DNA from: a virus
Length of the DNA: 64,000 nucleotides
Direction: 5' to 3' (one strand)
Virus record (IMG/VR): IMGVR_UViG_3300036770_007495
Location: 160,704 to 224,703 of that record
How positions within the stretch are numbered: the stretch's first letter is position 1; each line of letters begins with the position of its first letter. A model generated the notes under the pieces. It saw only the letters and a program-made list of their open reading frames with translations, did not search any database and had not been told where the DNA came from. Below, one piece after another: positions 3,216-41,125 of the stretch. The position numbers and the translations under genes were made by a program.

Positions 3216-5099
3216 TTAGTTTAACAATACTGTTTTAGAGCCTGATACAGAAGGTACAAAATTATTGATGCGTGTTTTTGTAATTTGAAGCACATCATTT
3301 TGCAAATCCCATATTTGCTTCAAAACTCTGTTGAGTGTACCTGGACTTGATGCAATTTCATTGTCATGCACATAGAAGTTGTTGGCATTGTCAATGGTAA
3401 TGCTGTTGAATTCATCATTTGTCAAAGCAACAATGCCTTGATTTACAAGATTGCCGATGTAGTCATAACTTGCTGCATATCTACCAGCAAGATAATTCTT
3501 TATGTACATTGTATTGGAGATGATTTTGTGCAATTCTTTGTTGAGAACAAATGCTTGAATCATTTCTGAATCATTAACTCTCAAGTTGTTGATTGCATAA
3601 ATGGTGAAGTCAGTTGATCCGAGCACACTTGTGTAGAGTGTTGGTTCTGTGTAATGTAAAATTCTGTTGAATGACTCACTCAAATATCCTGCAAAAACAA
3701 AAATCTCATCAGCATCCAAGTTGCTAGGCAAGAGTGACATGCTGCTTACTGCAATGCCTTTTCTCACAATGGCTCTTCCATCATTCCAGCGCCATTTTGC
3801 GCGATTGTAACGAGAAAACTCATTGTTCCAAATGTGGTCATTTGTAAATCCGCTTTTGTAAAATAGCCATTTGCCAATGCTTACATCTGGTCTGTTGACA
3901 AACTTTTTGAACACGTTTACATTGGTAAACATGTACATGATGTTGCTGTCATTGTATGAAAACTGCAATCCCTTGAAATATTCACCATCAATCAATTCAT
4001 CCTGCAAAATGTATTCTTGCTCAATGTTGAGATCCACATCACAAATTTGCAGAGTATTTGTTTTGGTTGTTAAATTGCTCACAATTACATAGACCTTGTC
4101 AAAAACATCATTGTATTGAAAAGCACGTGCAACTGTTGATGTGCCAATGGTGAATGCTCTGGTTGTTATGTATGATAGATTAGAATCATACACTTTGATG
4201 CATCTGTTGCCCTTGTCATGCACATACACACGATCAATGGAATCATTTGCATAAATTAAATCAGGGCCATTGAATTTTGTCTTGGCAAGAGCATTACCCT
4301 CACCACCAATTGATGCAACTAAAAATCTCTTGTTGGTAAGAGGTACATCATTGTTGTAAAAGCCACCAACATCATATTTGTAGACATTGTTTTGCTTAAC
4401 ATCACAAACATACATGAAATTGTTAGTGATGCTGAAGCTGCTGAGTTGCAAAAATGTTAAATCGCTGTTGGTATCAACATTTGCATTGTCATGAGTCACT
4501 TGCAATGATGTTAAATCAGGATTGCTACTCAACGCAATGATGGATGTAGGCGAAATGCCCAAGAAAGCATAGCCTACTTCATCTTGAATTTTTACAGCTT
4601 GCAGCTGAATTGCATTACCAATTGCACCAAGACCAACACCAGAAAAAGGTGTAAAAGTTGTAGCATCAGTTGGATCCTGTGCAATCCATGCTGGCAATGC
4701 ACTTAAACAACCTGCTGCACGATCAAAATTGTGTGGAATATCATTGCTTGCAATGAAGCATTTGGAATACAGATACAAAGAGTTGTTGTAGAGCTTATAC
4801 AGTCGGTCATTCAAAACTCTACCATTGAATGTCTCATTTGCTGCAATTTGTACATCAACATTGAAGTCATATGGCAGAGACAATTCATCTTTCAGAATTC
4901 TATCTCTAAAAAACTTTGAAGTCACCACATCTGCTGCATACGTATTTTTATCTGCAAGTTCTGCTGCATTATCAGCAATGTCTCTAGAAGCATAGATGTT
5001 TCCATCAACTACATGGTAGTATCCAACGTAGTCATTTCCGGTCAATGCAAAGTCTTTGCCGTTGGTGTATCCAACTTTGATGGAGGAGTAATCAATCAC
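3216..5099 (-). CDS. Tail/baseplate protein with NHL-like beta-propeller repeats
   Basis: A 627-residue protein whose start codon is GTG at 5097-5099, 5 nt from a late promoter. The only nearby ATG is out of frame and meets a stop at once. Residues ~225-420 contain repeating blade-like units such as FMYVCDVKQNNVYKYD, RVYVHDKGNRCIKVYD and DKVYVIVSN, the spacing of NHL/beta-propeller blades. Flanking parts are rich in Asn and Tyr. It directly follows the 1309-aa vWA protein, which has similar propeller blades, so the two may share ancestry or contact each other in the tail. No catalytic residues recognised. Carbohydrate or protein binding at the tail tip is plausible but inferred. Confidence 0.6.
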   Translation of the reverse strand: MIDYSSIKVGYTNGKDFALTGNDYVGYYHVVDGNIYASRDIADNAAELADKNTYAADVVTSKFFRDRILKDELSLPYDFNVDVQIAANETFNGRVLNDRLYKLYNNSLYLYSKCFIASNDIPHNFDRAAGCLSALPAWIAQDPTDATTFTPFSGVGLGAIGNAIQLQAVKIQDEVGYAFLGISPTSIIALSSNPDLTSLQVTHDNANVDTNSDLTFLQLSSFSITNNFMYVCDVKQNNVYKYDVGGFYNNDVPLTNKRFLVASIGGEGNALAKTKFNGPDLIYANDSIDRVYVHDKGNRCIKVYDSNLSYITTRAFTIGTSTVARAFQYNDVFDKVYVIVSNLTTKTNTLQICDVDLNIEQEYILQDELIDGEYFKGLQFSYNDSNIMYMFTNVNVFKKFVNRPDVSIGKWLFYKSGFTNDHIWNNEFSRYNRAKWRWNDGRAIVRKGIAVSSMSLLPSNLDADEIFVFAGYLSESFNRILHYTEPTLYTSVLGSTDFTIYAINNLRVNDSEMIQAFVLNKELHKIISNTMYIKNYLAGRYAASYDYIGNLVNQGIVALTNDEFNSITIDNANNFYVHDNEIASSPGTLNRVLKQIWDLQNDVLQITKTRINNFVPSVSGSKTVLLN

Positions 5100-5104
5100 A
5101 TGAA

Positions 5105-5111
5105 TATTTAC
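5105..5111 (-). promoter_or_regulatory. T4-like late promoter (GTAAATA), 5 nt before the GTG at 5099
   Basis: GTAAATA on the minus strand includes the TAA stop (5108-5110) of the preceding gene. The exact 5-nt spacing supports the GTG start. Confidence 0.7.
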
Positions 5112-8100
5112 TCATAGTCAACAAATTCAACACCCAAGATGTTGATTGTTGCTGGCAGAGATTGTGAAACTTGGCTCAAGACTTGTTGTTTGAGTGATGT
5201 CTTGAGTGATTCATTTGCAATGCCAGAGTTTTTGATGATGATGGATACATTGTTGCTCTTCATGCCTGGTGCTCCAAATGCAAACATGCGCTTGATGACA
5301 TCAATGTTGTTGCGCATGCCACAAGGCAAATGGAATGTTAAGTCAGATACATTGTAATCCTGCATTGTGATGAATCTTACATCATTTTCTGAAAGAGCTT
5401 TAGCATAAATTTTCGGATACAGCAGTGTTGCATTGCTTGCAAAGTATGCTTGCGGCTGTTTCAAGAATTGAGCAAGTGTTGCACCATTGACAAATTGTGT
5501 AGTTCCAAATGCAATTGCATTTGAAATCAATGGCTGCTGCACAGCATATTTTGCTGCACCAAAATTAACTACATCTGCTGTCTTGCCATCAATGAATATG
5601 GTTGCATTGCCCTGAATGCCATCAAGTCTCAAAGCAAAATGCTTGGTTCCTGGCAAGATGTTGTCAAGATCCACAGTTGTTGTGACTGTTTTGATGTCTC
5701 TATTGTTGTATTTGTTAGCAAGCTTCACCACAAAATCAAGCTTGTTGCCGCGATTCTTGTATTTTTGCTGCAAATATTGTGAATTTGTGAGATTGAGCGT
5801 TGCATTTTCAGAGTAAAGCACATCAGTTGCAACAGATGCAATGATGTTGCCTTGTGTATCCAGCTTTGCAAGATGTATTTTGTTGTTTGCATCTTTGGAT
5901 GCAACAATGGTTGTATGAACCAATGCACTGCCAATGTATTCATAGCAGTTGGTGATTGCAAAATTGATGGTGCTCAATGCATTGAGTGTACTGACATTGT
6001 ATTGCAACACACGCTCACTATTGTATTTTACAACCTTGAAGTCGCCATTGAGGATGTAAATGTTTTGATCCTTATCAACATCAAAATCTCTGATGTAGTT
6101 GATAACTTGAGCAGAGGAAAGTGACTTGAATGCTACATATTGCTCATTGGTTGCATAGTTGTAATTGACAATTTGATTGTTGTTATACAGATACAAGGCA
6201 GCATTGGTGCCATAAGGTATTGCTTTTGTGCCTAGAGTACCTACAATGCCACGATCACCATACAAAATACTCTTGGATGCAGGTGCTACTTCAAATGTTG
6301 ACAGAGTCTCTGTAGCAAAATTGAAGCGAGATACAGTCGTCTCATCAGCATGAAGAATATACACATCATCATTGTTTTGAACAACATCAATCCAGTTGAA
6401 AGTTGATGGAGCATTTGACAAAAGGCCAATGTCGTTGAGTGTTCGTACAATTAAATCAGCATAAAAGCTTGGTGTACTTGCTGCCAACACATTGTAAGAA
6501 TAGCTGATGTTGTTAAAATCAGACAATCCATTGGCGCCTGCATATGCACCATATCCATTTTGCACAGCTTCTAAAAATTGTCTAAAGCCTGTGTAAAGAT
6601 TTGGACCAGTATTGACTTGAAATACAACTGCACTATAAGCATATGGTGAAGTTGTTAGCAAATCACGCGCAGTAACAATATCATTGTTGTAAGTTGCAGT
6701 AGAAGCATTGATGTTGAATGTTGTGGAATCAGCACCATAAGGAGATGATTCATCTTGAAACACCAAATTAACAACTCTGGTTATTGTTGATGTTGTTCTT
6801 GGTGCAGAGACAACAATCATTGTGCGTTCTGTAGCACCATATTCACTAAAGAGCCTCACATTGACACGTTCATCATACAATGCTTCATCATTATTGAAGT
6901 AAGGAAGCAGTGTTTGCTTGAGAATTGTATCACGCATTTGAATCAAAGGCTCAAGAGTTGAGTTCATGGACCCTGAATCATCAAACCAAATGTTGAGCTC
7001 TGTGTTTACATCAATGAGACCTGCATCAGCAAGATTGTATTTGTCATACAGAGTGCCATCAGCATGCATTTTGTACAATGCATAGTTGGAGATGGCACCA
7101 AAGTCATCAATGGCATCAAAGCGTGGCACAAAAAGAGTTGGTTCAGGCAACAAAGTCTGTGTGATGCGATTGAAATCACTGTTGTAAATGTTGAGAGCAG
7201 ATGTGCTCTGCAACATGATGAGTGGTGTTACAACAGGATCTTTGATGAGAGCAAATCCAGTATCAGTCAAATTGCCAAGAACTTGATAAGCATTGAGATT
7301 TTTCCAATCATCACACTTGAGCCAGAAGGAAATGGTGAATGCATAATTTGCATTAATTGCATCATAGTTCTGAACTACATCATATGAATTGCCATTGAGT
7401 TCATATGCTTTGTTTGCAATGTAGGCATCTGAATACAGTTGATTGTTGCTTGTCTTCCACTGCAAACTATCAATGATGAGTGCATTGTCATGAGTTGCAA
7501 GATGTTCATTGATGCGTTTGTTGCCAATTCTGTAGTAGAAGTATTCTTGATTGGGTTCAAAAACTACATCACTCTTCTTATCAAAGAAATCATATGCAAA
7601 TGATTGCTGTTGCAAGTATGCAGATACAAAATCCTCATATGTTCCATATGTTACATTAACAGCTTTAGCTGCATCCAATGGTGACATCTTGTTGGAATTG
7701 TAGTATCTATCCACCCATTCAGCAGATGAATTATTTGGACCAGCAGATAGCCAGGTGCAAAGATATTGACCATCTTCACCTTGTGCAGCATTCTTGAGAG
7801 CAAGGATTTGATCAGCTGTGTAAGGTGAATCACCAGCATAAGCACCATCTGTTCTCAATGAAGCATCATTTACATTGAGTTGCTCATACGGATACAGAGA
7901 TGCAGATGTTTTGAATGATGAATATGCATCAGACTTAGCAACAAAGTCATTGGAAAACATTGTGAAGTTGATGGTGATGTTTTCATCACCCTTTTCTTGA
8001 CTGTTGCCTGCAAAAATGTTGGTGTAATCTCTGTTGATGGGACCAGCATTGTTGTTTCTTTGGTTGGTGTAACTTGCTTTGTCAAGAGTACCAAGTTGAG

Positions 8101-9037
8101 TTGACTGATTCTTGAGAACAATGGGTCTTGCTGGCACTTGCAGTGGAGTTGCATCTGCATATTGAGTAGCAACAAGCAAATTGCTTGGCAAATCATTGAG
8201 CAAAGTTGCATCATTGATGTTTAGCTTGTTGACATCATCAGTTGTGTATGAAGCCCATGAAGCATTCAATTTGCTACCCACTTGCAGTTCATTGGACCTC
8301 ACCAAAAAGTTAAAATTGTTGAACAGCAAGTAGTTGCTTGCATTGTATGCACTCAGCAATTGCAATTTGTTGCTATCAAAACCAGATACACCCAAAAATT
8401 TGGTGCGATTGCCTGAGAGAGGCTTTCTTAAGAACAAAGACTCACCAGATGAATCAAAAATGTATTCAAAAATTGTTTCGTCAATGTAATTGAAGTTGAG
8501 ATCATCGTAATCTGTGTATCCAGTAGCAAAAACTACATCTTCATTGCTGTTGATGGCAAGATAAAACTTCTCATGCTTGTATTTGTAGCAAATGCGTGCA
8601 TACTTCTCATCAAGCATTTCAAAATTGAAGAATGACTGATCAGGCACAGGCATGGAATCAAGTGCAAGCAATCTATGTGAAGTTGCTGCATTGAAATCAA
8701 ATGTGAATGTCTCTCTTTGACCATCAAAATACAAATACTTGGTAGCAGCATTTTGAGTAGCATCAATTGATAGACCCAGCTGTGTGGTTATGATTGAGCC
8801 CGGTTTCTTTTGCAGAGGTCTTAACTCAAAAACATCATCAAGACTCAATTCATTGGACAGCACCAGCGCGCTGTAATTGTTCATGGCAACATCTCTTGCG
8901 CTCAACATGAAATTGTGCAAGAAAATGTTGATGCCTTGCTGATTGTTGCTTGTGTTGCCTTTGAATTTAAAATCAACATCATCATGATAAGTGCAGCTTG
9001 CACTAGTCATGTGTGTCGAATAATTGAATACCTGCAT
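5108..9037 (-). CDS. Giant tail protein: ConA-like fold interrupted by vWA and beta-propeller domains
   Basis: A 1309-residue protein starting MQVFNYSTHM. Around residues 545-640 (AFTISFWLKCDDW) it looks like the first half of a LamG/concanavalin A-like sandwich. Residues ~675-870 look like a von Willebrand A domain opening with a MIDAS signature DDSGSMNS near residue 686. Residues ~875-1040 hold propeller-like strands (DVYILHADETTV, NIYILNGDFKVV). Residues ~1100-1230 (GNATIFIDGK, KIYAKALSENDV) look like the second half of the ConA-like fold. This order suggests vWA and propeller domains inserted in a lectin-type domain. Likely a large tail-tip or appendage adhesin. Domain calls are by eye. 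It has its own late promoter with a strong surrounding inverted repeat. Confidence 0.6.
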   Translation of the reverse strand: MQVFNYSTHMTSASCTYHDDVDFKFKGNTSNNQQGINIFLHNFMLSARDVAMNNYSALVLSNELSLDDVFELRPLQKKPGSIITTQLGLSIDATQNAATKYLYFDGQRETFTFDFNAATSHRLLALDSMPVPDQSFFNFEMLDEKYARICYKYKHEKFYLAINSNEDVVFATGYTDYDDLNFNYIDETIFEYIFDSSGESLFLRKPLSGNRTKFLGVSGFDSNKLQLLSAYNASNYLLFNNFNFLVRSNELQVGSKLNASWASYTTDDVNKLNINDATLLNDLPSNLLVATQYADATPLQVPARPIVLKNQSTQLGTLDKASYTNQRNNNAGPINRDYTNIFAGNSQEKGDENITINFTMFSNDFVAKSDAYSSFKTSASLYPYEQLNVNDASLRTDGAYAGDSPYTADQILALKNAAQGEDGQYLCTWLSAGPNNSSAEWVDRYYNSNKMSPLDAAKAVNVTYGTYEDFVSAYLQQQSFAYDFFDKKSDVVFEPNQEYFYYRIGNKRINEHLATHDNALIIDSLQWKTSNNQLYSDAYIANKAYELNGNSYDVVQNYDAINANYAFTISFWLKCDDWKNLNAYQVLGNLTDTGFALIKDPVVTPLIMLQSTSALNIYNSDFNRITQTLLPEPTLFVPRFDAIDDFGAISNYALYKMHADGTLYDKYNLADAGLIDVNTELNIWFDDSGSMNSTLEPLIQMRDTILKQTLLPYFNNDEALYDERVNVRLFSEYGATERTMIVVSAPRTTSTITRVVNLVFQDESSPYGADSTTFNINASTATYNNDIVTARDLLTTSPYAYSAVVFQVNTGPNLYTGFRQFLEAVQNGYGAYAGANGLSDFNNISYSYNVLAASTPSFYADLIVRTLNDIGLLSNAPSTFNWIDVVQNNDDVYILHADETTVSRFNFATETLSTFEVAPASKSILYGDRGIVGTLGTKAIPYGTNAALYLYNNNQIVNYNYATNEQYVAFKSLSSAQVINYIRDFDVDKDQNIYILNGDFKVVKYNSERVLQYNVSTLNALSTINFAITNCYEYIGSALVHTTIVASKDANNKIHLAKLDTQGNIIASVATDVLYSENATLNLTNSQYLQQKYKNRGNKLDFVVKLANKYNNRDIKTVTTTVDLDNILPGTKHFALRLDGIQGNATIFIDGKTADVVNFGAAKYAVQQPLISNAIAFGTTQFVNGATLAQFLKQPQAYFASNATLLYPKIYAKALSENDVRFITMQDYNVSDLTFHLPCGMRNNIDVIKRMFAFGAPGMKSNNVSIIIKNSGIANESLKTSLKQQVLSQVSQSLPATINILGVEFVDYE

Positions 9038-9058: not shown

Positions 9059-10015
9059 TTAGTATTTGATGCAAGGAAGTAATGCAATGTTGCGTGGTCT
9101 GGTTTCTATACCCTGCAACTGAACATTGCTATTTTCAACTCTTGCTAGAGTATTTGATGGCGGGCTATTTACAAAAGAATCTGTAAATGCATTTGGAGAA
9201 GACTTAACAAATCCTGCTGCAAGAGCAGACTCAGATGTAAGATATCTAGCAGAAAATTCTGAACCTACATCTACTACGCGTGTCAGGAGATTGTGCTCAC
9301 CAACTTGATGAGATTGATTGCTGCCAAAGGTTCTGCCTACATCAACATCAGCACGCTGATCACCGCCTGCTCGACTCCAGCCGCGAATAAATTCACCACG
9401 CAAATCTGGTAGTTCACCGCCACTGCCATATGTAGCACCAAGAATAGCGTAAAGATTAGAGAAATCAGCAGCAATTCCTTGTGCTATACCATTGCCATTC
9501 GGCACTTGACCACCACTGCAGATGAGATATCCAGTTGGCGCAGTTTGACCAGCAAACCAAAATACTGCGCCTGTTGGAACAGCAAATGCACCAGCACCAA
9601 CTGCTGCATCAACATATTGCTTGGTAACTGCATCCAGCAATTGAGTAGGATTTCCTGTGAGCGTCAAGTGTCCAGTCATGGTACCACCCGACAAAGCCAA
9701 AAATCCGGATTTTACATTGGCTAGAACTTGCGCGTCTTGTGTATCAACGTAGCCTTTGTTTGCTGCATCAAGAGTTTTAAATGGGCTGCCAGTAAGAGCC
9801 AAATAACCAGTCATTGCATCACCTGTTTTGCTCACTTTGTTGGTATAGATATCAGGTAGAATGATGCTGCTGATGGATTTGTAAAGTGTTGCAAAGCTTA
9901 CTTTTTTGGTGTATCCATCACCACCAATTTGATCAACAACAAAAACATCGCCATTGTAAAGCAATGAAGCTGGTGGGAGTTGAGAAATGTTGACTTGTTG
10001 TGCTTGCTGGGCCAT
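9059..10015 (-). CDS. Short tail fibre-like protein with phage tail collar domain
   Basis: A 318-residue protein. Residues ~63-90 and ~110-137 are two copies of a fibre repeat: TGDAMTGYLALTG ending in KGYVD, then GGTMTGHLTLTG ending in KQYVD. Residues ~140-225 form a tail collar domain: PTGAVFWFAGQTAPTGYLIC, then LPDLRGEFIRGWSRAGG. This domain is known from T4 gp12 and many short fibres, where it trimerises and presents the receptor-binding tip. The C-terminus ETRPRNIALLPCIKY is the usual ending of this family. It has its own late promoter 5 nt before the ATG. Most likely a short tail fibre or equivalent receptor-binding protein. Confidence 0.85.
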   Translation of the reverse strand: MAQQAQQVNISQLPPASLLYNGDVFVVDQIGGDGYTKKVSFATLYKSISSIILPDIYTNKVSKTGDAMTGYLALTGSPFKTLDAANKGYVDTQDAQVLANVKSGFLALSGGTMTGHLTLTGNPTQLLDAVTKQYVDAAVGAGAFAVPTGAVFWFAGQTAPTGYLICSGGQVPNGNGIAQGIAADFSNLYAILGATYGSGGELPDLRGEFIRGWSRAGGDQRADVDVGRTFGSNQSHQVGEHNLLTRVVDVGSEFSARYLTSESALAAGFVKSSPNAFTDSFVNSPPSNTLARVENSNVQLQGIETRPRNIALLPCIKY

Positions 10016-10030: not shown

Positions 10031-10678
10031 TCAAGAGGTGAGACGTGGAACGATGGAATACTGGAAAAAGCGTGTGGTGAGAGGCAACCCACTGCGAGTA
10101 GCAAGTTCTGCACCCACAACCTTGAGATTATCATCTTCTGCAACAATGGGCAGCTCGTTTTTGCTCAAATACAAATTGAAAGCATTGCCTTGAGCATCAC
10201 TTGCAACAGCAAAAACATCATGTGATGTAACAGGCATCAACTGTGTTGACATGATGTTGATCTCTTTTACAGTGTTGTAATAAGAATCTTTTGCCAACTC
10301 AAACAACACCTTGTGAGTGCCTGTGTAGCTGGATGCATACTGCAAAACAAACAAAGCAGTTAATGTTGTGACAAATGAGGATGTCTGTTTGACATAAGTA
10401 TGATTTATGTTTTGAGTGATGCTCATTATTTTGCCTGATTCAGCAATTTCAATGGCACCTGCAGATGCAATGGTGTTGTGCAAATCCAATGCATCTTCAT
10501 ATGTTGTTCCATCACCAAAATCCGCTACAATGTGCAGCACAGGATCTGTCTCTTCTTGAATTTGATACAAGTTGAAGTTGATGGGTGCAATGCCCTTGAT
10601 GAAATAAGGTCCATACACACTCACATAATCAGCAACAGGCTGTGTAGCAGATAGGTTGATGTTTAAAGTTGCATTCAT
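10031..10678 (-). CDS. PKD-like domain structural protein
   Basis: A 215-residue protein. VADFGDGTTYEDA (residues ~50-63) followed by NHTYVKQ (~112) is the hallmark of a PKD/Ig-like beta-sandwich, in which a DFGDG turn precedes an HxY strand. The rest is beta-prone. Its ATG overlaps the stop of the upstream 990-aa gene (TAATG), implying translational coupling and a shared transcript. The same domain type is found in the 715-aa protein at 38978-41125. Likely a tail or baseplate accessory subunit; partner unknown. Confidence 0.6.
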   Translation of the reverse strand: MNATLNINLSATQPVADYVSVYGPYFIKGIAPINFNLYQIQEETDPVLHIVADFGDGTTYEDALDLHNTIASAGAIEIAESGKIMSITQNINHTYVKQTSSFVTTLTALFVLQYASSYTGTHKVLFELAKDSYYNTVKEINIMSTQLMPVTSHDVFAVASDAQGNAFNLYLSKNELPIVAEDDNLKVVGAELATRSGLPLTTRFFQYSIVPRLTS

Positions 10679-13650
10679 TAGTTGAAGAAGAGAGCACCAT
10701 TTTGTGCATTGAAAGATGCATTGGCTGTTGACAACACATCAATGGTGGAGAATGTTGACAAAGCATTTACAAAGTTGTAAGTGAATGGCAAATCATCAGG
10801 AGCAAACACACCTGTCAAGTTGTCATCAAACACAATGGCATCACCAACCAAATTAAACCATGCGGCAAAAACATATGACATGTTGTTGAGGTCATAACCT
10901 GTCCATGACAATGCATATTTGTCATTCTGCTGTGCATATGAAACATTTGCATTTCCATAACGAACAATGTTGACGCTGCTCAATGGATTTGCAAACATTG
11001 AAGATAATGTTGATACATCTGCATTTGTTGGGAATTTCTTTTCAAATGCATTTGTTTTGACATTGTATCTGTAGATGGTTGGGTAAATGCATTTTGCATT
11101 GGTTGCACTCAAAGCATCTTCAAGCAATGTTGTTTTGAATGTCCAGACATCATTTGTATGTTCCACAAAGAAGCTGTTGGAGCATTGCTCATTTGCATTG
11201 ATAGTGATGGTGCTGTTGAATGTGCCAGTTTTGATGAAGTTGCCTACATCATCCATTTCAATTTTATCAAACACAACATAGTGAGGTGTTTTGATGATGA
11301 TGGTGTTGTAAATGAGATTGAAATTCTCAACACTTGTTGAGTAAATTTCATTTTTAACTGCAGCAGGATACTTGAAGAAGGTTGCAGACAATGCTGATGA
11401 GAGCGGCATCACCTGATTCTGAATGATGTTTTTCACAAGAATGCTACCAATCTTAGCTTTGATTTGCTCAAGTGTTTCATTGCTAATTTGTGCACTTGCT
11501 GCAACAATGGTAGTACATTCAGGATTTACTACTCCAATGTAATTGTCTAGTGATTCAGAATAATCATAATCAGCAATGGTGTAGCATTCATTGTTGAAGT
11601 AGTTGCTGTCAAACACCTGATAGATGTTGCTAGAGAGTGCTGGTGCTACAACAGTTGCTGTCAAAGCAGCCATGTTTCTACCAGGCACAAGCACATTGGT
11701 AGCGCTCAAACCTGCATCACACAAAATTGCATAATACACTTTGGAGTTGGCATTCCATGCAACAGAATCTGATGATACATCTGGTAAGATTGAATTGTCA
11801 GGTGCAGCAAAAAAGCCACCATCTCTGATGGAGCAAATGTAATTTGGATTGATGCTTGCGCATGCAAAGTATGGTGAGTATTCTCTAAAGTAAAGAGTGT
11901 ATTTGCTGCCTGTGAGTGTAAACATTCCTGCACTTGCAAATGTGTATCCAGTGGAGAAGGTTCCACCTCCAGGAGGCAATGCATCAATGGTCTTTGCAGT
12001 CAATCCTGTTCTGATGGATCCAAAATAATCATCATCTACAATTGCATAGTCGAAACCAAATCCTTGTTCAACATCATTGAATACATGTCCATCAATGGTG
12101 ATGCATTTGGAGTTGATGTTGTTGATGTTGTTGATGTTTTGATTGTAACGCTTGACATCTTTGAGCAAGCCAAATTCATTGCCATACACATCCTGCTTGT
12201 ATTGTGTAAAGATGCCTTCATCAAAAACGCGCTGCAAATGCACATCAAATGCAGATGCATTGTGTGTGTCAGCATTGATGTACAGAGGTTCAGAAAAGTA
12301 TGCAAAGAAGTTTTGCAAATACTCACTGCTCTTGATGTATCCATAAGCAAGACCTGCATCAAGCTTTTTGACATTGCCAGAATAGTCTATTGCAAACTGC
12401 AAAGGATATGGCAAATTGCTGAAGTAAAAATTGGTTACATTGCCATAAATGTTTGGATCAGGAAATACGTAAACATGGTTGGGCTTCAAGCTGCCCTGAT
12501 TTACATAATATGACTTGCTGGGAGCAGCAAATTGCAACACACCCATTTTGTCTGGGCGGAAAAACAATCCCAGCTGCTGGGCAGTTTTGAGTTGATCTTC
12601 TGGAACAGTTGCTGTGGTAACAAATCGTTTGTTGACAAGATTGCCACATGCATTTTCAGCCTTGAAAAGTGTGCCTGAAACAAACTGACTTTGCGAGTTG
12701 GTGGACAGGTAATAGAAGTCTGTACCAATGTATTTTTGCACCAATTTGCGCTTGAGTGCATATGTGGAAGACAATGCTTGTGTATCTGCATTGAGCAACT
12801 CAGCAATGGGATTGATTTCGCAATTGAAATCAAACAAAGTTTTCTCAATGAAGCGCTGCGGATTAATGACCAAGCCTGCACCAATTTCTTTGAGATAAAA
12901 AGGTGTTGCAAAGATGTCTGCAAGAACAGCATTGCTAAATCCAAGAAACAATTGCGCAGAAATTGTATTCACATTGCTTGTGAAGTACTTGCGACGCAAT
13001 TCATTTGTTATCTGCAAATCATCAGGTGTTGCAGATGGATCCAAATCAAAATAATTGCTGTATGTATCAAAGTAGTCAACTACATCAATTTGCAAAGTCT
13101 GCGCAATCTGCTGCAAATCAATGTTGATTGCGCCTTCATCTTCTGCTGCATACAAATAGTCAATGATGTTTTGAAATACTGTTTTCTCAATGGATGTTGT
13201 TGATCCTTTGATGCGTACTTCTTGAGATCTGGACTTTATTGCTTCACGCTTTTTAGCATAAAACAAGCAGATGTCTTTGAGCTTTTGAGCATAAAATGGA
13301 ATTGCAATGGCAAGATCTGATGCATCATCATAATCAAGATTGCTGAGAAATCGCTTCTCATCAATGGTAGTAAAATTGATGGCAATGTCTCTGAGCAGAT
13401 CCACATAACGCTGCCTGATTTCATTGGTTTGAACTGCAGGTGTTTCATTGGTCTGCAAATACCATTGCTGCAAATAATCATTGTAGCCTTGAGTAAATTG
13501 CTCTGGCGTAGCCACCTGCTTGGAATACTTGAGATATTCAAAGAAGGAGAATGGCTGAAAATTGTCCAAAGTGTCGGCGGTGCCAACGTTTGCATTGGTT
13601 ATTGAGTAGTCAACTGTTGCAGACCCAAAGTTGAAGTTGTTAGATGCCAT
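10678..13650 (-). CDS. Large tail/baseplate structural protein
   Basis: A 990-residue protein. I chose the ATG at 13648-13650 (MASNNFNF), which is 6 nt from the late promoter; a GTG one codon upstream would be only 3 nt away. The first ~170 residues look alpha-helical (FSFFEYLKYSKQ, FTQGYNDYLQQWYLQ), followed by ~800 residues of beta-rich, Asn/Tyr/Ser-rich sequence. Size and position next to fibre genes suggest a baseplate wedge or fibre-attachment protein, perhaps the counterpart of T4 gp7 or gp10, but I cannot confirm homology. Start codon and promoter lie between short GCCAT/ATGGC repeats. Confidence 0.55.
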   Translation of the reverse strand: MASNNFNFGSATVDYSITNANVGTADTLDNFQPFSFFEYLKYSKQVATPEQFTQGYNDYLQQWYLQTNETPAVQTNEIRQRYVDLLRDIAINFTTIDEKRFLSNLDYDDASDLAIAIPFYAQKLKDICLFYAKKREAIKSRSQEVRIKGSTTSIEKTVFQNIIDYLYAAEDEGAINIDLQQIAQTLQIDVVDYFDTYSNYFDLDPSATPDDLQITNELRRKYFTSNVNTISAQLFLGFSNAVLADIFATPFYLKEIGAGLVINPQRFIEKTLFDFNCEINPIAELLNADTQALSSTYALKRKLVQKYIGTDFYYLSTNSQSQFVSGTLFKAENACGNLVNKRFVTTATVPEDQLKTAQQLGLFFRPDKMGVLQFAAPSKSYYVNQGSLKPNHVYVFPDPNIYGNVTNFYFSNLPYPLQFAIDYSGNVKKLDAGLAYGYIKSSEYLQNFFAYFSEPLYINADTHNASAFDVHLQRVFDEGIFTQYKQDVYGNEFGLLKDVKRYNQNINNINNINSKCITIDGHVFNDVEQGFGFDYAIVDDDYFGSIRTGLTAKTIDALPPGGGTFSTGYTFASAGMFTLTGSKYTLYFREYSPYFACASINPNYICSIRDGGFFAAPDNSILPDVSSDSVAWNANSKVYYAILCDAGLSATNVLVPGRNMAALTATVVAPALSSNIYQVFDSNYFNNECYTIADYDYSESLDNYIGVVNPECTTIVAASAQISNETLEQIKAKIGSILVKNIIQNQVMPLSSALSATFFKYPAAVKNEIYSTSVENFNLIYNTIIIKTPHYVVFDKIEMDDVGNFIKTGTFNSTITINANEQCSNSFFVEHTNDVWTFKTTLLEDALSATNAKCIYPTIYRYNVKTNAFEKKFPTNADVSTLSSMFANPLSSVNIVRYGNANVSYAQQNDKYALSWTGYDLNNMSYVFAAWFNLVGDAIVFDDNLTGVFAPDDLPFTYNFVNALSTFSTIDVLSTANASFNAQNGALFFN

Positions 13651-13656
13651 CACAGT

Positions 13657-14157: not shown

Positions 14158-14164
14158 TATTTAA
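14158..14164 (-). promoter_or_regulatory. T4-like late promoter (TTAAATA), 5 nt before the ATG at 14152
   Basis: TTAAATA on the minus strand overlaps the TAA stop (14161-14163) of the upstream peptidase-like gene. Confidence 0.75.
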
Positions 14165-14625
14165 TACTCGCCAATTGTTATTTTTGACATGGTTTTGTAC
14201 AGCTGCAGCACATATTTGAACTGTTTTTCATGCTTGCGGCACATTTTTTCTGCAGGTGAGCTAAAGTATTTGGACTCTGGCACAATTTGCTTTTCATGCC
14301 ACTTCATCACATTGAATTGATGCCAATGCATCATCTCATGCATGATGCTGATGAACAATTGTTTTTGTAGTTTTTTTGCATCAGTGCATTCAATTATTCT
14401 GTTGCACAAAAAAACTTCATCCTCAAATGCATAATATCCATAATTTACATCATCTCTCTTGTCTACTCTCAATGCAATGTAATGATGCTTTACTGGTGTT
14501 GAATCACAGTCAAAATGAACATTGTAGAATGCTGTATATGCAGCACCAAAAGTGACGCAATCAAAATTACACTCATCAAGAATTTTCTTGGCTATGCCTG
14601 ATGGATAAAAATGAAATACTTTCAT
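14161..14625 (-). CDS. HExxH metallopeptidase-like protein
   Basis: A 154-residue protein starting at MKVFHFYPSG; the open frame runs on upstream to 15114 but there it overlaps plus-strand neck genes. Residues 96-100 are HEMMH, the zinc-binding HExxH motif, followed by SSPAEKMCRKHE (122-133), where E127 could be the third ligand, as in SprT/WSS1-like and minigluzincin-type proteins. Cys-containing N-terminal part of unknown role. It is divergent from the neck operon and sits beside head and neck genes. Possible roles are virion maturation or host-protein cleavage; inactivity cannot be excluded. No clear late promoter at this start. Confidence 0.6.
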   Translation of the reverse strand: MKVFHFYPSGIAKKILDECNFDCVTFGAAYTAFYNVHFDCDSTPVKHHYIALRVDKRDDVNYGYYAFEDEVFLCNRIIECTDAKKLQKQLFISIMHEMMHWHQFNVMKWHEKQIVPESKYFSSPAEKMCRKHEKQFKYVLQLYKTMSKITIGEY

Positions 14626-14642
14626 AGCTTTTGCAAATGGGC

Positions 14643-14649
14643 ATAAATA
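14643..14649 (+). promoter_or_regulatory. Possible late promoter (ATAAATA) for the 14671 gene
   Basis: ATAAATA lies 21 nt before the ATG at 14671, or 3 nt before an in-frame TTG at 14653. The geometry is atypical for this genome. Confidence 0.45.
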
Positions 14650-14670
14650 AACTTGTCCATTGTATTTACT

Positions 14671-15081
14671 ATGAGCTTTCCAACATTCAAAACATTTTTT
14701 GAAACTACTGCAACTGATCCGACTGTTAATAAAGCTGTCAATGGATATGGTGATGGAAATGCTGCAGGCAAAATGAGAACCAGCCGCATAACTGGCACCA
14801 GCAAAAACCCAAATTTGCTTGCTCAAAGCTCCATCAACACTCAAACTGCAACTAAAAACAACAAGATTGACAAAGTTGCAAATAATCCTGCAGCACAAGA
14901 AGTTTTGAATGATCTTGATTTGCAAGAAATTCAAAACACTCACGGCATTGATTTGAATCAAATGCAAAATGATCAGCCCAAGCAAGTCAATGCAAAAATT
15001 AATGCAGCAGTTGTAAAGTCTGTTGATGCAACAGGCAAGCCAATTTACAGATTGATTCACTACAAGCCAATTCAGCAATGA
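14671..15081 (+). CDS. Hypothetical protein upstream of neck gene
   Basis: A 136-residue protein (MSFPTFKTFFE), not recognised. It is rich in Asn, Lys, Ala and Gln, with a likely helical centre (AAQEVLNDLDLQEIQ). Its stop overlaps the start of the neck gene (ATGA), so the two are translationally coupled. A position just before gp14 would suit gp13, but it is far shorter than T4 gp13 and I see no support for that identity. An in-frame TTG at 14653 could extend it by six residues. Confidence 0.6.
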   Translation: MSFPTFKTFFETTATDPTVNKAVNGYGDGNAAGKMRTSRITGTSKNPNLLAQSSINTQTATKNNKIDKVANNPAAQEVLNDLDLQEIQNTHGIDLNQMQNDQPKQVNAKINAAVVKSVDATGKPIYRLIHYKPIQQ

Positions 15082-15872
15082 GTTACTACTCCGGAGCATA
15101 TCAAGCACCAACATGCGGCGTGTTTTACACTGGCGCTAACAATGGAAACTTTGATTGTCAAGTCAATGTCAACAACTTGAACAACAATGCTTCTGAACGT
15201 GAAACCATCTCCAATTCCATTCAAGAAGCCATCAATCGATTTGGATCCACTGTAGCATACTATGTGAATACATACAATGTATCTGCTGCAAACAACATTT
15301 ATGGTGAAGATCCAACCAGCACATTCTTTGGTCCAACCAATGTGGTGATGTACATCAAATTGTCTGAAAATTCAGTTACATTGCGCAGATTTGGCTTTGA
15401 TAGTGGTGATGACATTACAGCATATGTGCACATCAGTTCATATTATGCAACATTTGCACCATTGAGTGTGTATCCTGCATTGCAGCAAGCCATTGAACCC
15501 AAAGCAGGTGATGTATTCCAGATGATTCAGTATGGTGCAACCAGACCAGGTGATCGCAATGGCAAATTCTTCGAAATCACTGAAAGAGTTGATCAAGAAA
15601 TGGATGATCCAAGCATGAATCCATTGGGTGGACACTACATGTGGAAATTGCGTGCTCGCCGTCTTGACTTTAGCTTTGAGCCTGGATTGTCTGGTGAAAG
15701 AGGTGCTGCACAGGTGTTTGACAATGCTCTCAATGGCATCATGCCTGGCGGTACACAACAACCTTCACCTGACAAGACATATCCCGGCAGCGCAGATGCA
15801 GAAAGCCTCAACATTTTTGATCAAAGTGTAAACAACACAAGTGTTTATGGAGAATATGGTTACAACCCTTGA
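15078..15872 (+). CDS. Neck protein (gp14-like)
   Basis: A 264-residue protein, close to the 256 aa of T4 gp14. Features recalled from T4-type neck proteins are the early YQAPTCGVFYTG segment, NSIQEAINRFGSTVAYYVN (~48-66), the FFGPTNVVMYIK stretch and a C-terminal acidic tail ending near VYGEYGYNP. Gp13 and gp14 close the filled head and make the platform for tail docking. It overlaps the upstream gene by 4 nt and is followed by an early-type nuclease gene with its own promoter. Confidence 0.75.
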   Translation: MSYYSGAYQAPTCGVFYTGANNGNFDCQVNVNNLNNNASERETISNSIQEAINRFGSTVAYYVNTYNVSAANNIYGEDPTSTFFGPTNVVMYIKLSENSVTLRRFGFDSGDDITAYVHISSYYATFAPLSVYPALQQAIEPKAGDVFQMIQYGATRPGDRNGKFFEITERVDQEMDDPSMNPLGGHYMWKLRARRLDFSFEPGLSGERGAAQVFDNALNGIMPGGTQQPSPDKTYPGSADAESLNIFDQSVNNTSVYGEYGYNP

Positions 15873-37163: not shown

Positions 37164-38981
37164 ATGGCTGCTCAAAACTTCACAGAATTCAATCTTCCTA
37201 AAAATGCTTATGCGGCATTTGATGCGGTGAGTCTCAAGAGCCTCATCATTGATAGGCTCAAGGCATCCAACGTATTTACTGATCAAGCATATGAAGGAAG
37301 CAATTTGTCAGCCATCATTGACATCATTGCTTATGCATATCACGTTTCATTGTTTTATCTCAACAATCAAGCATCTGAAGCATATTTCAATCAAGCATCA
37401 TTGTATGAGAACATGAACAAATTGGTTGCATTGATTGGATACAATCCAGTTGGATCTCAAACATCCATTGCACCATTTGTAGCAACAGCACAAAGTGGTC
37501 TGCCCATTGGAACATACATCATTCCAAGATACTCATTCATTGCTACCAATGGCATTTTCTTCTCTGTAACTCAAGACATTTATTTTGACAAGACCATTGA
37601 TGGTGAAGAAATCATTGCATCCATTGGAGATCAGAACTTGCTTTACCAAGGGCAAATGAGAGAATACCCTGCTCAAACAGCCATTGGAGAAGAATTTGAA
37701 ATTGTTACATTGACTGTCAACAGTCAAGTCAATACCAATGAGCCATTTGTAGACAACAACAACATTTTTGTTTACATCAAGGATGTTGATTCAGGTGCAT
37801 GGAGTGAATGGAAACCAGTTGCATCTCTTTTCACAGAATCAGCAACAAGCAAATCATTTGAAAAGCGTCTCAATGATCAAGGTCTTTTTGAGTTGAAGTT
37901 TGGTGATGGCATCACTGGCAAGAAGCTCAATGCTGGTGACACCATTGCAATCTACTACCTGCTCAGCAATGGAGCAGCAGGAGTCATCTCTGCTAGCGCA
38001 ATTGCTGACGGTACTTTTGTAAGATTTGTTACTCCGCAGTATCGCGAAATCATCAACAACATCTATGCATCAGATGATCCTGTTGCAACACAAACTCAAC
38101 TCAACAGCTTGTTCATTGAAAATACAAACAGATCAACTGACATCAAGCCTTTGGAAAATGTTGAAGACATCAGAGCAAATGCACCAAAAATGTTTGCTGC
38201 TCAAAACAGAGCAGTAACAGAATCAGATTTCAATGCATTTGTTGCTCGCAACTTCACAAGCATCATCAGAGATTCACAAACCATCAACAACACAACTTAC
38301 ATCAATGAATACATCAAGTATTTTTATGACATTGGCTTGAAGCAGCCAAATGATGACTCAAGAGTATTGCTCAATCAAGTTGCATTTGCTGATGCATGTG
38401 ACTTCAACAATGTTTACATTTTTACTGTGCCAAGAAACTTCTTGGTTGGTGAATCACAGCCACAAACTTTGCCCATTGCTCTCAAACAGCTCATGGTGAA
38501 TGAATTGCAGGCTGTAAAAATGCAAAACGTTGAAATTGTGCCAAGTGATCCAGTGTATGTTGCAGTTGATGTGGGTGTTGCTGCAATTGGTGAAATACCG
38601 ACAGAGAGCATTCGCAACAATTCATTCTTGGTCATCAAGAAGCAAGCCAATTCAAAAATCTCAAGCAATCAAATCAAAACCAGTGTATACAATGCCATCA
38701 TCAACTACTTCTCTGTTGATGCAATGAAACTTGGTCAGCAGCTCAACTTTTTTGACTTGACAAGAGACATTCTTGCCATTGCAGGAGTAGCAAGCGTCAG
38801 TACACTGCGCAATGTTGATGGAGAAGTTGCATCAATACCAGGGTTGAGCTTTGTGTTATGGAATCCTCAATATGCACAAGAGGACATCATTGTGACATCA
38901 CAAAACATCAAGTTGCCGGTGTTCAAATATCCTTTCTTGATTGATAAGACTGCATTAATCAACAAAATTTTAGTTGAATGA
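37164..38981 (+). CDS. gp6: Baseplate wedge protein (gp6-like)
   Basis: A 605-residue protein; T4 gp6 is 660. Opening helices (YAAFDAVSLKSLIIDRLK ... FTDQAYEGSNLSAIIDIIAY) and the mid-protein FELKFGDGITGKKLNAGDTI plus AVTESDFNAFVARNF are hallmarks of the gp6/baseplate-J family. It forms the gp6 ring holding the wedges together. Immediately follows gp25 and overlaps the next gene by 4 nt, the usual 25-6 gene order of T4 relatives. Confidence 0.9.
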   Translation: MAAQNFTEFNLPKNAYAAFDAVSLKSLIIDRLKASNVFTDQAYEGSNLSAIIDIIAYAYHVSLFYLNNQASEAYFNQASLYENMNKLVALIGYNPVGSQTSIAPFVATAQSGLPIGTYIIPRYSFIATNGIFFSVTQDIYFDKTIDGEEIIASIGDQNLLYQGQMREYPAQTAIGEEFEIVTLTVNSQVNTNEPFVDNNNIFVYIKDVDSGAWSEWKPVASLFTESATSKSFEKRLNDQGLFELKFGDGITGKKLNAGDTIAIYYLLSNGAAGVISASAIADGTFVRFVTPQYREIINNIYASDDPVATQTQLNSLFIENTNRSTDIKPLENVEDIRANAPKMFAAQNRAVTESDFNAFVARNFTSIIRDSQTINNTTYINEYIKYFYDIGLKQPNDDSRVLLNQVAFADACDFNNVYIFTVPRNFLVGESQPQTLPIALKQLMVNELQAVKMQNVEIVPSDPVYVAVDVGVAAIGEIPTESIRNNSFLVIKKQANSKISSNQIKTSVYNAIINYFSVDAMKLGQQLNFFDLTRDILAIAGVASVSTLRNVDGEVASIPGLSFVLWNPQYAQEDIIVTSQNIKLPVFKYPFLIDKTALINKILVE

Positions 38982-41125
38982 GTGATGTTCCTTACAGCTA
39001 CGTATACTTTGATGTACTCAATTTCTCAAATGCATATTCTACCACAGGATATGCACTGAGTGTGTGTCCATTTACATTCTCACCTCGTGTGCAGAATGAT
39101 GCTACACTTTCCAACAAGAGAATTTTGTGGGACTTTGGTGATGGTACAACATCAACTGCAGTGACTGCAATGCACGCATACAACTTGCCTGGAACTTATC
39201 AGGTTACCATGTATTTGTATGATGCTCAAGGCAATGCATATTACAATGCATATGATGCTACAGTAACAGTTAGCAATTATTTGAATGATGCCATTGTTTT
39301 GTCTGCAAACAATTTCAACTTCATTACATCAGATGTAAATGACAATGCATTTGATGTCTATAGATTCAACTCTTGGCAAAACAAGCCAAAAACAGAATTC
39401 ACTATCTTGTTGCATGCCAGCGGCAACAATGCTCCTTACATTGATGAGCAGCAATACAACAAAGACAAATATGCGCATTTGAAGAAGTATAGCCAGTTTT
39501 ATCAATTGGTTTACAACAACAATTTGCAATTGTTTGAATATGTTCCAACCAACAACATTGCAACAACATCAACCAATTTGTATGCAAGATTGTCATCAGG
39601 TGCATTGGTGCCATGTGCTGCTTCTGATGCAGGATCCATCTTCATTGGCACATCTGGATATGCACAATGTGCTTATGCGGATGATGAGCCTACCACAAGT
39701 CATCCAACGCTCATTTTTGCTTCATTTGACAACGTTGCTTTCAAGGATCCCAACAATCTATACCTTGACACACCTTTTAATAAACAAACGTTGCAGACCA
39801 ATGCGCAATCGTTTTATTGCACCATCTCCTCACTTGCACCAAACAAAATCTTCATCACCAGCACAGGCATAAGTGCAATGCCAGTCAATACTGTGCAGTT
39901 CACCAATGCTCCAATTCCATTTGTGGTGCAAATTGCAACTGCAACAGATGCAGCATGCAAATATTGTTCAAATCTTAAGCGTGTGGATGCAATGGGTTCA
40001 TTGTCAGCCAACACCATTCAAATTTATGCATTTGATGCAACCACACAGCAAGTGCTCACAAGCGCCATTGTGGATGATTTTGGTGAATTTGCAAACTACA
40101 ACACAGGCATTTACAAAGGCTACTGTGCATTCTCTTCACCATTGACTGGTGTAAAAATTGCTGCAGTTGCAAGCGTATCTTCTGTTTTTGGAACTGTAAC
40201 ATTGTCTGCAACAACTGATGCATTGGAGATTGTTGACAACAACTTTGCTGTATTCAAAATCAATGAAAACTTTGACCAAGCAGCAAAGTACAAAAGCTAC
40301 CGCTTCCAAGAAACATTGCTTGACAAAGATGTGTTCTTTGATTCATTCTTGGGCACCATTGTTGGCAATGTTTCAGCAGCACCTGATGCACCAGGCAAGC
40401 GCATTCATGAAAAGCAAGCCAACTTTGTAAACAACACACAATTTGTTGATGTGTGCAACATTGATGCATTATATGCACTCAAAACCATGTTGGATGCCAA
40501 CATCTATCAGTTTGAAAAGTACAATTTTGCCACACCTGCAGAATTGTCTCGCATCATTGATCTCATCAGCATTAAACAGAGCAAACTTTGGGGTGCCATC
40601 AATGAATATGCTGAAAACTTTGATAAAAAAGGATATGTGACCAATGCATTGTATGGCATCAACTTGGGTGATGCACTTGATTCACAAACAACAATTTTGA
40701 CTGCCGGATCTGCTGCAGGTCACATTGTTGCATATGAAAAATTCAGTGGTAAGTATTTGCTCATCAACACTGATTTGTTGAGCTCAGCCAATGTGCAATT
40801 CATTGATGCAAACAAGCAAACATATGCATTGAGCGCATACAATGACTTTTGGGGGTGGGGGTTGGTGTTGCCTGATCCATTTGATGCAACAATCTTCAAT
40901 CACTACTATGATTTCTATGCATATGTTGCAACACCTGCTGGAAATGTACTCAACTCCACCATCAACTGGTCTGATGCACTCAACACCATCACCAGATCAC
41001 AAAGCTCATATGCTTCATGGACTGCAAAAAATGGCACCATGGAAAAACTTTTGCAACAAGCTCTCTTGCAAGGATTGACTGTGTTTTCCAACATAACAGG
41101 CCAGAGTGCTGCTTACATTGCATAA
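38978..41125 (+). CDS. Large baseplate-associated protein with N-terminal PKD domain
   Basis: A 715-residue protein. ILWDFGDGTTSTAV (~49-62) then HAYNLPGTYQVTMYLYD (~67-83) is a clear PKD domain. The remaining ~600 residues are beta-rich, Asn/Ala/Phe-rich and unrecognised. It follows gp6 with an ATGA overlap, where T4 relatives carry peripheral wedge proteins, so a wedge or fibre-docking role is inferred. A short G-rich stretch (near 40851-40865) encodes FWGWGLVLP. Its stop lies in the next late promoter. Confidence 0.6.
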   Translation: MSDVPYSYVYFDVLNFSNAYSTTGYALSVCPFTFSPRVQNDATLSNKRILWDFGDGTTSTAVTAMHAYNLPGTYQVTMYLYDAQGNAYYNAYDATVTVSNYLNDAIVLSANNFNFITSDVNDNAFDVYRFNSWQNKPKTEFTILLHASGNNAPYIDEQQYNKDKYAHLKKYSQFYQLVYNNNLQLFEYVPTNNIATTSTNLYARLSSGALVPCAASDAGSIFIGTSGYAQCAYADDEPTTSHPTLIFASFDNVAFKDPNNLYLDTPFNKQTLQTNAQSFYCTISSLAPNKIFITSTGISAMPVNTVQFTNAPIPFVVQIATATDAACKYCSNLKRVDAMGSLSANTIQIYAFDATTQQVLTSAIVDDFGEFANYNTGIYKGYCAFSSPLTGVKIAAVASVSSVFGTVTLSATTDALEIVDNNFAVFKINENFDQAAKYKSYRFQETLLDKDVFFDSFLGTIVGNVSAAPDAPGKRIHEKQANFVNNTQFVDVCNIDALYALKTMLDANIYQFEKYNFATPAELSRIIDLISIKQSKLWGAINEYAENFDKKGYVTNALYGINLGDALDSQTTILTAGSAAGHIVAYEKFSGKYLLINTDLLSSANVQFIDANKQTYALSAYNDFWGWGLVLPDPFDATIFNHYYDFYAYVATPAGNVLNSTINWSDALNTITRSQSSYASWTAKNGTMEKLLQQALLQGLTVFSNITGQSAAYIA

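Follow-up and report, generated by a model that had tools for sequence, protein, structure and literature searches.

Adhesins that bind proteins through a von Willebrand factor A (vWA) domain are known from pili and from the adhesion receptors of eukaryotes. Among the latter, integrins have a propeller of the FG-GAP type, which associates with a beta subunit. In the integrin alpha chains that possess an I domain (alpha-I, a vWA domain), this domain lies between blades 2 and 3 of the propeller (PMC10659397). A comparable insertion is predicted in a 1309-amino acid (aa) bacteriophage protein encoded at positions 5108-9037 of a 64,000-nucleotide stretch of DNA (the window) that represents bases 160704-224703 of the 224,703-base virus record IMGVR_UViG_3300036770_007495. 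This record is a 224.7-kb contig of a T4-like myovirus, a bacteria-infecting virus, and its window encodes a contractile-tail set comprising the sheath, the tape measure, a gp6-type baseplate wedge, and the terminase. An earlier note, made from the letters of the window, had described the protein as carrying both a vWA domain and a propeller inserted within a lectin-like fold.

Related combinations of modules have been described on other filaments. In Streptococcus sanguinis, adhesive vWA and ConA-like modules are displayed on a filament by the pilins PilB and PilC, respectively, as is envisaged here, and PilB binds proteins and mediates adhesion through its vWA domain (PMC8179133). The two differ from the phage protein in being separate pilins with terminal rather than nested modules, and in belonging to a pilus rather than a phage tail. 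PilY1, the tip adhesin of type IV pili, resembles the phage protein in uniting a vWA domain with a seven-bladed propeller in one surface protein; however, its vWA is N-terminal to the propeller and not inside it, and the excerpted account describes no lectin fold (PMC11891296). Likewise, an excerpt on the eBAP4 fibre group of the extracellular contractile injection systems, which derive from phage tails, reports Pfam VWA together with PKD and lectin modules, but as separate domains strung on a bulky shaft, and nesting is not described in that excerpt (PMC12923769).

Nested Architecture of the Protein

The protein has a nested architecture in which a ConA/LamG-like fold is interrupted by a propeller and the propeller, in turn, is interrupted by the vWA domain (Table 1). 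The innermost element bears the signature DDSGSMNS, which the earlier note had placed near residue 686 and read as a metal ion-dependent adhesion site (MIDAS); it was located at residues 686-693, with D686, S688, and S690 forming the D-x-S-x-S pattern. An AlphaFold2 model of residues 484-1309 (24 alignment rows) was good over the propeller and its flanks and poor over the vWA region, as judged by a low predicted local distance difference test (pLDDT). Since this large model did not resolve the domain, it was modelled apart with its counterparts from the virus contigs L002 and L040 (three sequences), giving a pLDDT of 74.4, a predicted template-modelling score (pTM) of 0.80, and alternating strands and helices. 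When this model was ranked by VIA-align, which drew on the candidates of Foldseek only, nearly all top positions were held by vWA proteins: VWF A1 (1fns; Z 8.7 over 154 residues, 3.8 Å) was followed by PilB (7ba2; Z 8.1), the best-ranked bacterial vWA, and an integrin beta chain (4wk2; Z 7.9), with the top VWF-A1, PilB, and integrin matches spanning Z 8.7-7.6. Foldseek by itself placed hydrolases first with poor superposition and did not recognize a vWA. Residues 670-880 are thus modelled as a Rossmann-type vWA fold, divergent in sequence, and the fold that the earlier note had looked to structure prediction to confirm is indeed predicted, its ranking and its absence as a 210-aa unit from all aligned relatives but one being in agreement. 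Both D-x-S-G-S-M and FQDE are invariant in the five proteins of the subfamily, which share 35-56% identity with the window's domain.

With the vWA skipped, VIA-align fitted residues 118-603 of the large model (601-1086 of the protein) to seven-bladed propellers with Z ~20; the best match was 1ri6 (Z 20.2, 259 residues, 3.3 Å), and other seven-bladed rings also stood at the top. The blade count is six or seven: DSSP assigns 26 strands, six units are seen by eye, and the nearest solved rings have seven, while comparison of the propeller with itself gave no settled number. According to the model, the propeller starts ahead of the vWA, at residues 601-669, and resumes after it. The earlier note had recognized a propeller at residues 875-1040 and missed this first portion; it had also correctly placed the propeller and the vWA inside the lectin fold, but the two do not lie side by side, the vWA being within the propeller. 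By DSSP, with the blade register set by eye, eight strands making up two blades precede the insertion point and a new four-strand blade follows it, and the vWA is accordingly modelled in the connection between blades 2 and 3. In propellers generally, a blade-to-blade connection of this kind is on the top face. No flanking repeats that might explain the insertion were found.

For the outermost fold, the sequences flanking the propeller were joined and scored against Pfam Laminin_G_3 (151 positions, cut-off 27.6 bits). The joined halves of the relative at L013 scored 31.4 bits and matched profile positions 2-150 in a single stretch, its C-terminal half alone giving 20.2 bits at positions 75-150. 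Those of L015 scored 26.8 bits, and those of L016 and L024 had no Laminin_G_3 match. As an order control, placing the C-terminal half before the N-terminal half gave 31.5 bits, the same total but as two stretches; the total score itself says nothing on the order of the halves. Because the halves match complementary parts of the profile and form one stretch in their native order, the two ConA pieces of this family are read as halves of one lectin-like domain broken by the propeller. The pairing of the halves that the earlier note had set at residues 545-640 and 1100-1230 hence stands with revised bounds, but it is more weakly shown for the window's protein itself, where it leans on the relatives: its own joined halves scored 15.1 bits (E 0.027, profile 5-109), below the cut-off.

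Ahead of these folds, the N-terminal body bears the motifs GN[SD]QEKG and FFDK.SD and has no match in PDB or Pfam. By structure, the best viral match to the model, by far, was A0A6J7X8W6 in BFVD, a protein of an uncultured Caudovirales phage (E 4e-43, TM 0.57 over the query, 920 alignment columns, 15% identity).

Relatives and Gain of the vWA Domain

Sequence searches with the 1309-aa protein recovered no relatives from Pfam, PHROGs, PDB, or 50,697 phage records, the few weak matches having the look of chance, and a profile of the family likewise had no PDB match. A relative of similar length with 70% identity is encoded by L002. A second, of 1099 aa, was found at L005 by a scan through the neighbouring gene, and it aligns to residues 1-669 and 882-1309 with no match in between. 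Profile scanning brought the total to 28 loci, those newly found having 26-33% identity; neither L016 nor L024 has a relative among deposited phages, nor do the vWA domains of L040 and L042. The alignment comprised 21 proteins, 17 of them single-chain (including the window's own and the partial L032) and four encoded by two adjacent open reading frames (ORFs). The vWA insert was present in only one of the 20 aligned relatives, that of L002, with the same borders. In the tree, the window's protein and that of L002 group together with L005, which has no vWA, as their sister, and the split-gene group is next. The lectin-propeller body is the normal form of the family and the vWA alone is novel; with its direction taken from parsimony, the change would be a single gain in the common ancestor of the window and L002 phages. 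The two carriers, their sister without a vWA, and the wider family without it constitute a natural before-and-after set for the effect of a vWA on a tail protein.

Identity between the two carriers differs by part, falling from 78% and 77% at the N-terminal body and C-terminus, through 75% in the C-terminal ConA half, to 60-62% in the propeller and 55% in the vWA. By these values, the propeller and vWA diverge faster than the body and the lectin fold, as expected for an exposed part.

In four relatives (L012:9411-9420, L013:9998-10005, L014:9965-9972, and L015:9983-9990) the protein is encoded as two adjacent ORFs. The break falls within propeller blade 2, approximately 20 residues before the vWA insertion point, and the two halves of the lectin fold are thus on two chains. 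At each gap, of 2 nt in L012 and 1 nt in L013-L015, an ATG comes shortly after a TAA stop, and a true division of the gene is therefore favored, though not proven, over a programmed frameshift.

vWA Domains Elsewhere in These and Other Viruses

A scan with the inserted vWA as a single protein found no relatives, but profile scans did. At L040, a 94-kb virus contig, a domain of 41% identity ends a 376-aa protein after GGVVVGG repeats; at L042, one follows a virion protein of phrog_14478 (whose profile match extends to residue 1514 out of 1760); and at L041 it occurs in a secreted-looking protein of 1575 aa from a Verrucomicrobia metagenome-assembled genome (MAG). The two adjacent genes at L040:5470-8202 start alike and share GGVVVGG repeats, but the vWA terminates one of them and NHL/LDL-receptor-like propeller repeats terminate the other; from their sequences, these end modules are possibly exchangeable. 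The L042 contig (L042:1265-6547; QMKT01000054.1) is filed under an Epsilonproteobacteria MAG and encodes phage virion proteins (phrog_13977 and phrog_14478), and it is probably of viral origin, although binned as bacterial.

A second vWA gene of the phage itself lies just past the left end of the window, on the same strand as the 1309-aa gene; it is another fibre-module gene and encodes 576 aa. Its Pfam VWA_2 match is 29.4 bits, or 25.5 bits with the ORF scanned as protein. The L002 phage also has this gene (66% identity), whereas the L016, L024, and L021 phages match residues 2-229 only, and VWA_2 was not found in them (these records are fragments, yet they do include the matched genes). The L005 contig stops inside the gene and is not informative. 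Because a direct comparison of the inserted-vWA profile with the second vWA protein gave no match, the two are treated as different subfamilies. Both carriers have a vWA in two fibre-module proteins.

These occurrences raise a broader possibility, offered tentatively: phages may own a mobile vWA module, recognizable by DxSGSM...FQDE...GLxD, and may insert it into virion proteins of unrelated kinds to confer metal-dependent protein binding. Its sites would be the interior of a T4-like tail propeller, the terminus of a virion protein of phrog_14478, and, in a third virus, the terminus of a protein with repeats. In this lineage, its position between blades 2 and 3 would amount to an independent invention of the head with which integrin alpha binds ligands.

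Proposed Function and Alternatives

The 1309-aa protein is proposed, with somewhat better than even confidence, to function as a baseplate or tail-tip adhesin of a T4-like phage in which a conserved body carries a ConA jelly roll with a propeller insert, and in which the vWA was gained as an added binding or specificity module. A tail adhesin is favored because a collar fibre gene is its neighbour and the gene belongs to a conserved module with a gp6-type wedge. The vWA is regarded as an added binding module because the same subfamily recurs as a module of other proteins, and because a second, different vWA is found in another fibre-module gene of both carriers. We infer display at the tail tip, binding of metal, binding of a host surface protein by the vWA, and glycan contact through the lectin fold or propeller. 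The composite tail-tip adhesin of the earlier note, which may recognise both protein and sugar, is thereby supported in part, through its three folds, the split lectin, and the gene context. A vWA of ~210 aa would have entered the connection between blades 2 and 3 in the ancestor of the window and L002 phages, and the propeller would probably hold it out, away from the conserved body. There, the DxSxS site would be free to accept a divalent metal and then an acidic group of a host-surface protein, in the manner of integrin I domains; glycans may be held or bound by the propeller and lectin fold, with the vWA serving as an extra specificity module.

The analogy suggests that a virus may have gained a new means of gripping cells, with an architecture that resembles the animal integrin head. 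In the VIA-align ranking, integrin domains stood close to the inserted vWA, but no sequence relation to integrins was detected (no PDB sequence match), and no lectin fold encloses the integrin alpha propeller as it does that of the phage; the resemblance is far more likely to be convergent than to reflect kinship. If correct, the proposal would extend protein-binding vWA adhesins to phage tails and provide an independent case for testing why vWA domains come to lie between propeller blades 2 and 3.

Several observations weigh against this proposal. The profile search suggested by the earlier note recovered the LamG part in the family (Laminin_G_3, above cut-off at L013), but not the vWA: none of the five subfamily members matched the Pfam VWA models up to E 10. 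The vWA Z scores (8.7 at best) are moderate and come from a model built on three sequences, and T739 is the sole invariant candidate for the Thr of MIDAS loop 2, its placement in the site being uncertain. The metal site of PilB is dispensable for ligand binding in vitro (PMC8179133). The propeller could perform all of the binding alone, and the two carriers, being of one lineage, represent one event only.

Of the alternatives, the strongest, although unlikely, assigns the vWA a role in structure or assembly: it would contact an adjacent tail protein, by way of a metal bridge or a protein interface, and stabilize the baseplate of this lineage with no host contact. vWA domains are frequently intracellular protein-protein adaptors, a vWA-MIDAS protein encoded beside an AAA ATPase in haloviruses is thought to be one (PMC7911831), and the phage protein is part of a conserved structural module. 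However, this module is built without a vWA in all aligned relatives but one, the vWA and its propeller are the fastest-changing parts, and the same two phages have a second vWA added to another fibre-module gene. A role in binding the environment (mucus, extracellular matrix, particles, or an algal surface) that would keep the phage near its prey, in the manner of Ig-like capsid decorations, is rated slightly lower again. It would accord with the 41% relative being the apparently interchangeable end of the repeat-bearing L040 protein and with another occurring in the secreted-looking Verrucomicrobia MAG protein, but the vWA gene sits in a tail/baseplate module and not in a capsid decoration gene. 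A frozen accident, in which a loop merely tolerates a neutral domain that has no function, is improbable: the blade just before the insertion also tolerates a gene split (L012-L015), yet the domain has stayed open and foldable, with D-S-S and FQDE invariant, despite only 55% identity between the carriers. Finally, an assembly chimera or annotation artefact, which might be suspected as the sequence is known from a metagenomic contig only, was refuted by the same insertion with the same borders on the independent contig L002 (70% identity), and is the more implausible given that the gene has no stop or frameshift and that the GC content of the insert equals that of most of the gene.

Gene Neighbourhood and Other Observations

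The gene for the adhesin proposed above is intact, with an ATG start, no internal stops, and a starting Met common to relatives (MQVFNYS or MQVLDYA); no clear Shine-Dalgarno sequence precedes its start codon. It is encoded within a conserved tail/baseplate structural module. In relatives with enough flanking sequence, the gene order is the gp6-type wedge, a PKD-like protein, a protein of ~970 aa, the target protein, and a propeller-like protein of ~640 aa. The window has a counterpart to each of these four other genes (29-44% identity to L016); unlike in the relatives, its wedge and PKD-like genes are separate from the target gene and on the opposite strand.

Table 1. Positions of the protein's parts, its genomic neighbours, and the second vWA (window coordinates unless otherwise indicated).
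Feature	Position	Strand	Remarks
Whole gene, tail/baseplate-module protein, nested ConA(propeller(vWA))	5108..9037	-	1309 aa
N-terminal body, residues 1-516	7490..9037	-	Most conserved part; 78% to L002, 48% to L005
ConA/LamG-like fold, N-terminal half, residues ~517-600	7238..7489	-	Joined-halves Laminin_G_3 profile match
First two propeller blades, residues ~601-669	7031..7237	-	Model 118-185, part of aligned propeller
Inserted vWA-type domain (modelled), residues ~670-880 (~210 aa)	6398..7030	-	Absent from all aligned relatives but L002
MIDAS loop 1, DDSGS, residues 686-690 (D686, S688, S690)	6968..6982	-	D and both S invariant in five-member subfamily
Candidate MIDAS loop 3, FQDES, residues 760-764 (D762)	6746..6760	-	FQDE invariant in 5/5; role inferred from place after modelled strand
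Remaining propeller blades, residues ~881-1074	5816..6397	-	AlphaFold2 model, VIA-align
ConA/LamG-like fold, C-terminal half, residues ~1075-1232	5342..5815	-	Laminin_G_3 profile 75-150 in relatives
C-terminal alpha/beta domain, residues 1233-1309 and stop	5108..5341	-	Conserved, 77% to L002
Downstream neighbour, propeller-like (by eye)	3216..5099	-	627 aa; kept next door in relatives; 29% to L016 11171-13102
Upstream neighbour, tail collar fibre protein	9059..10015	-	Pfam Collar E 2.6e-8; phrog_523 E 7e-26
991-aa protein	10678..13653	-	33% to L016; in relatives a conserved partner upstream of target gene
gp6-type baseplate wedge protein	37164..38981	+	phrog_219 E 6e-42; 44% to L016; heads gene row in relatives
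PKD-like protein	38978..41125	+	715 aa; 33% to L016; partner of gp6-type gene in relatives
Second vWA, Pfam VWA_2, DQTAS site	G000:C1:157670-158002 (L038:961-2691)	-	Lectin-looking N-terminus ahead of it

The downstream neighbour at L021:11291-14935 has 1214 aa compared to the usual ~640, owing to long Ser/Thr/Val-rich low-complexity stretches. In the window, a minus-strand ORF at 14161-15114 carries a metallopeptidase-like HEMMH motif in the latter half; because a plus-strand ORF (14653-15081) overlaps the first half, the true start is doubtful.

The tail sheath of the window (20263-22905, 880 aa) matches the sheaths of T4-like phages with roughly 32-39% identity over about one third of the protein; by tblastn, its likeness to known T4-like sheaths is confined to approximately the C-terminal third, implying a large extra part. 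A fibre protein with an Mtd_N domain (Pfam E 9e-10) is encoded at 746-1624 of the window and at L002:15540-16628, with lengths of 292 and 362 aa, respectively; the copy number of its internal repeats (like YASGGIAATAQGLSAKVDN) is unequal between the two phages.

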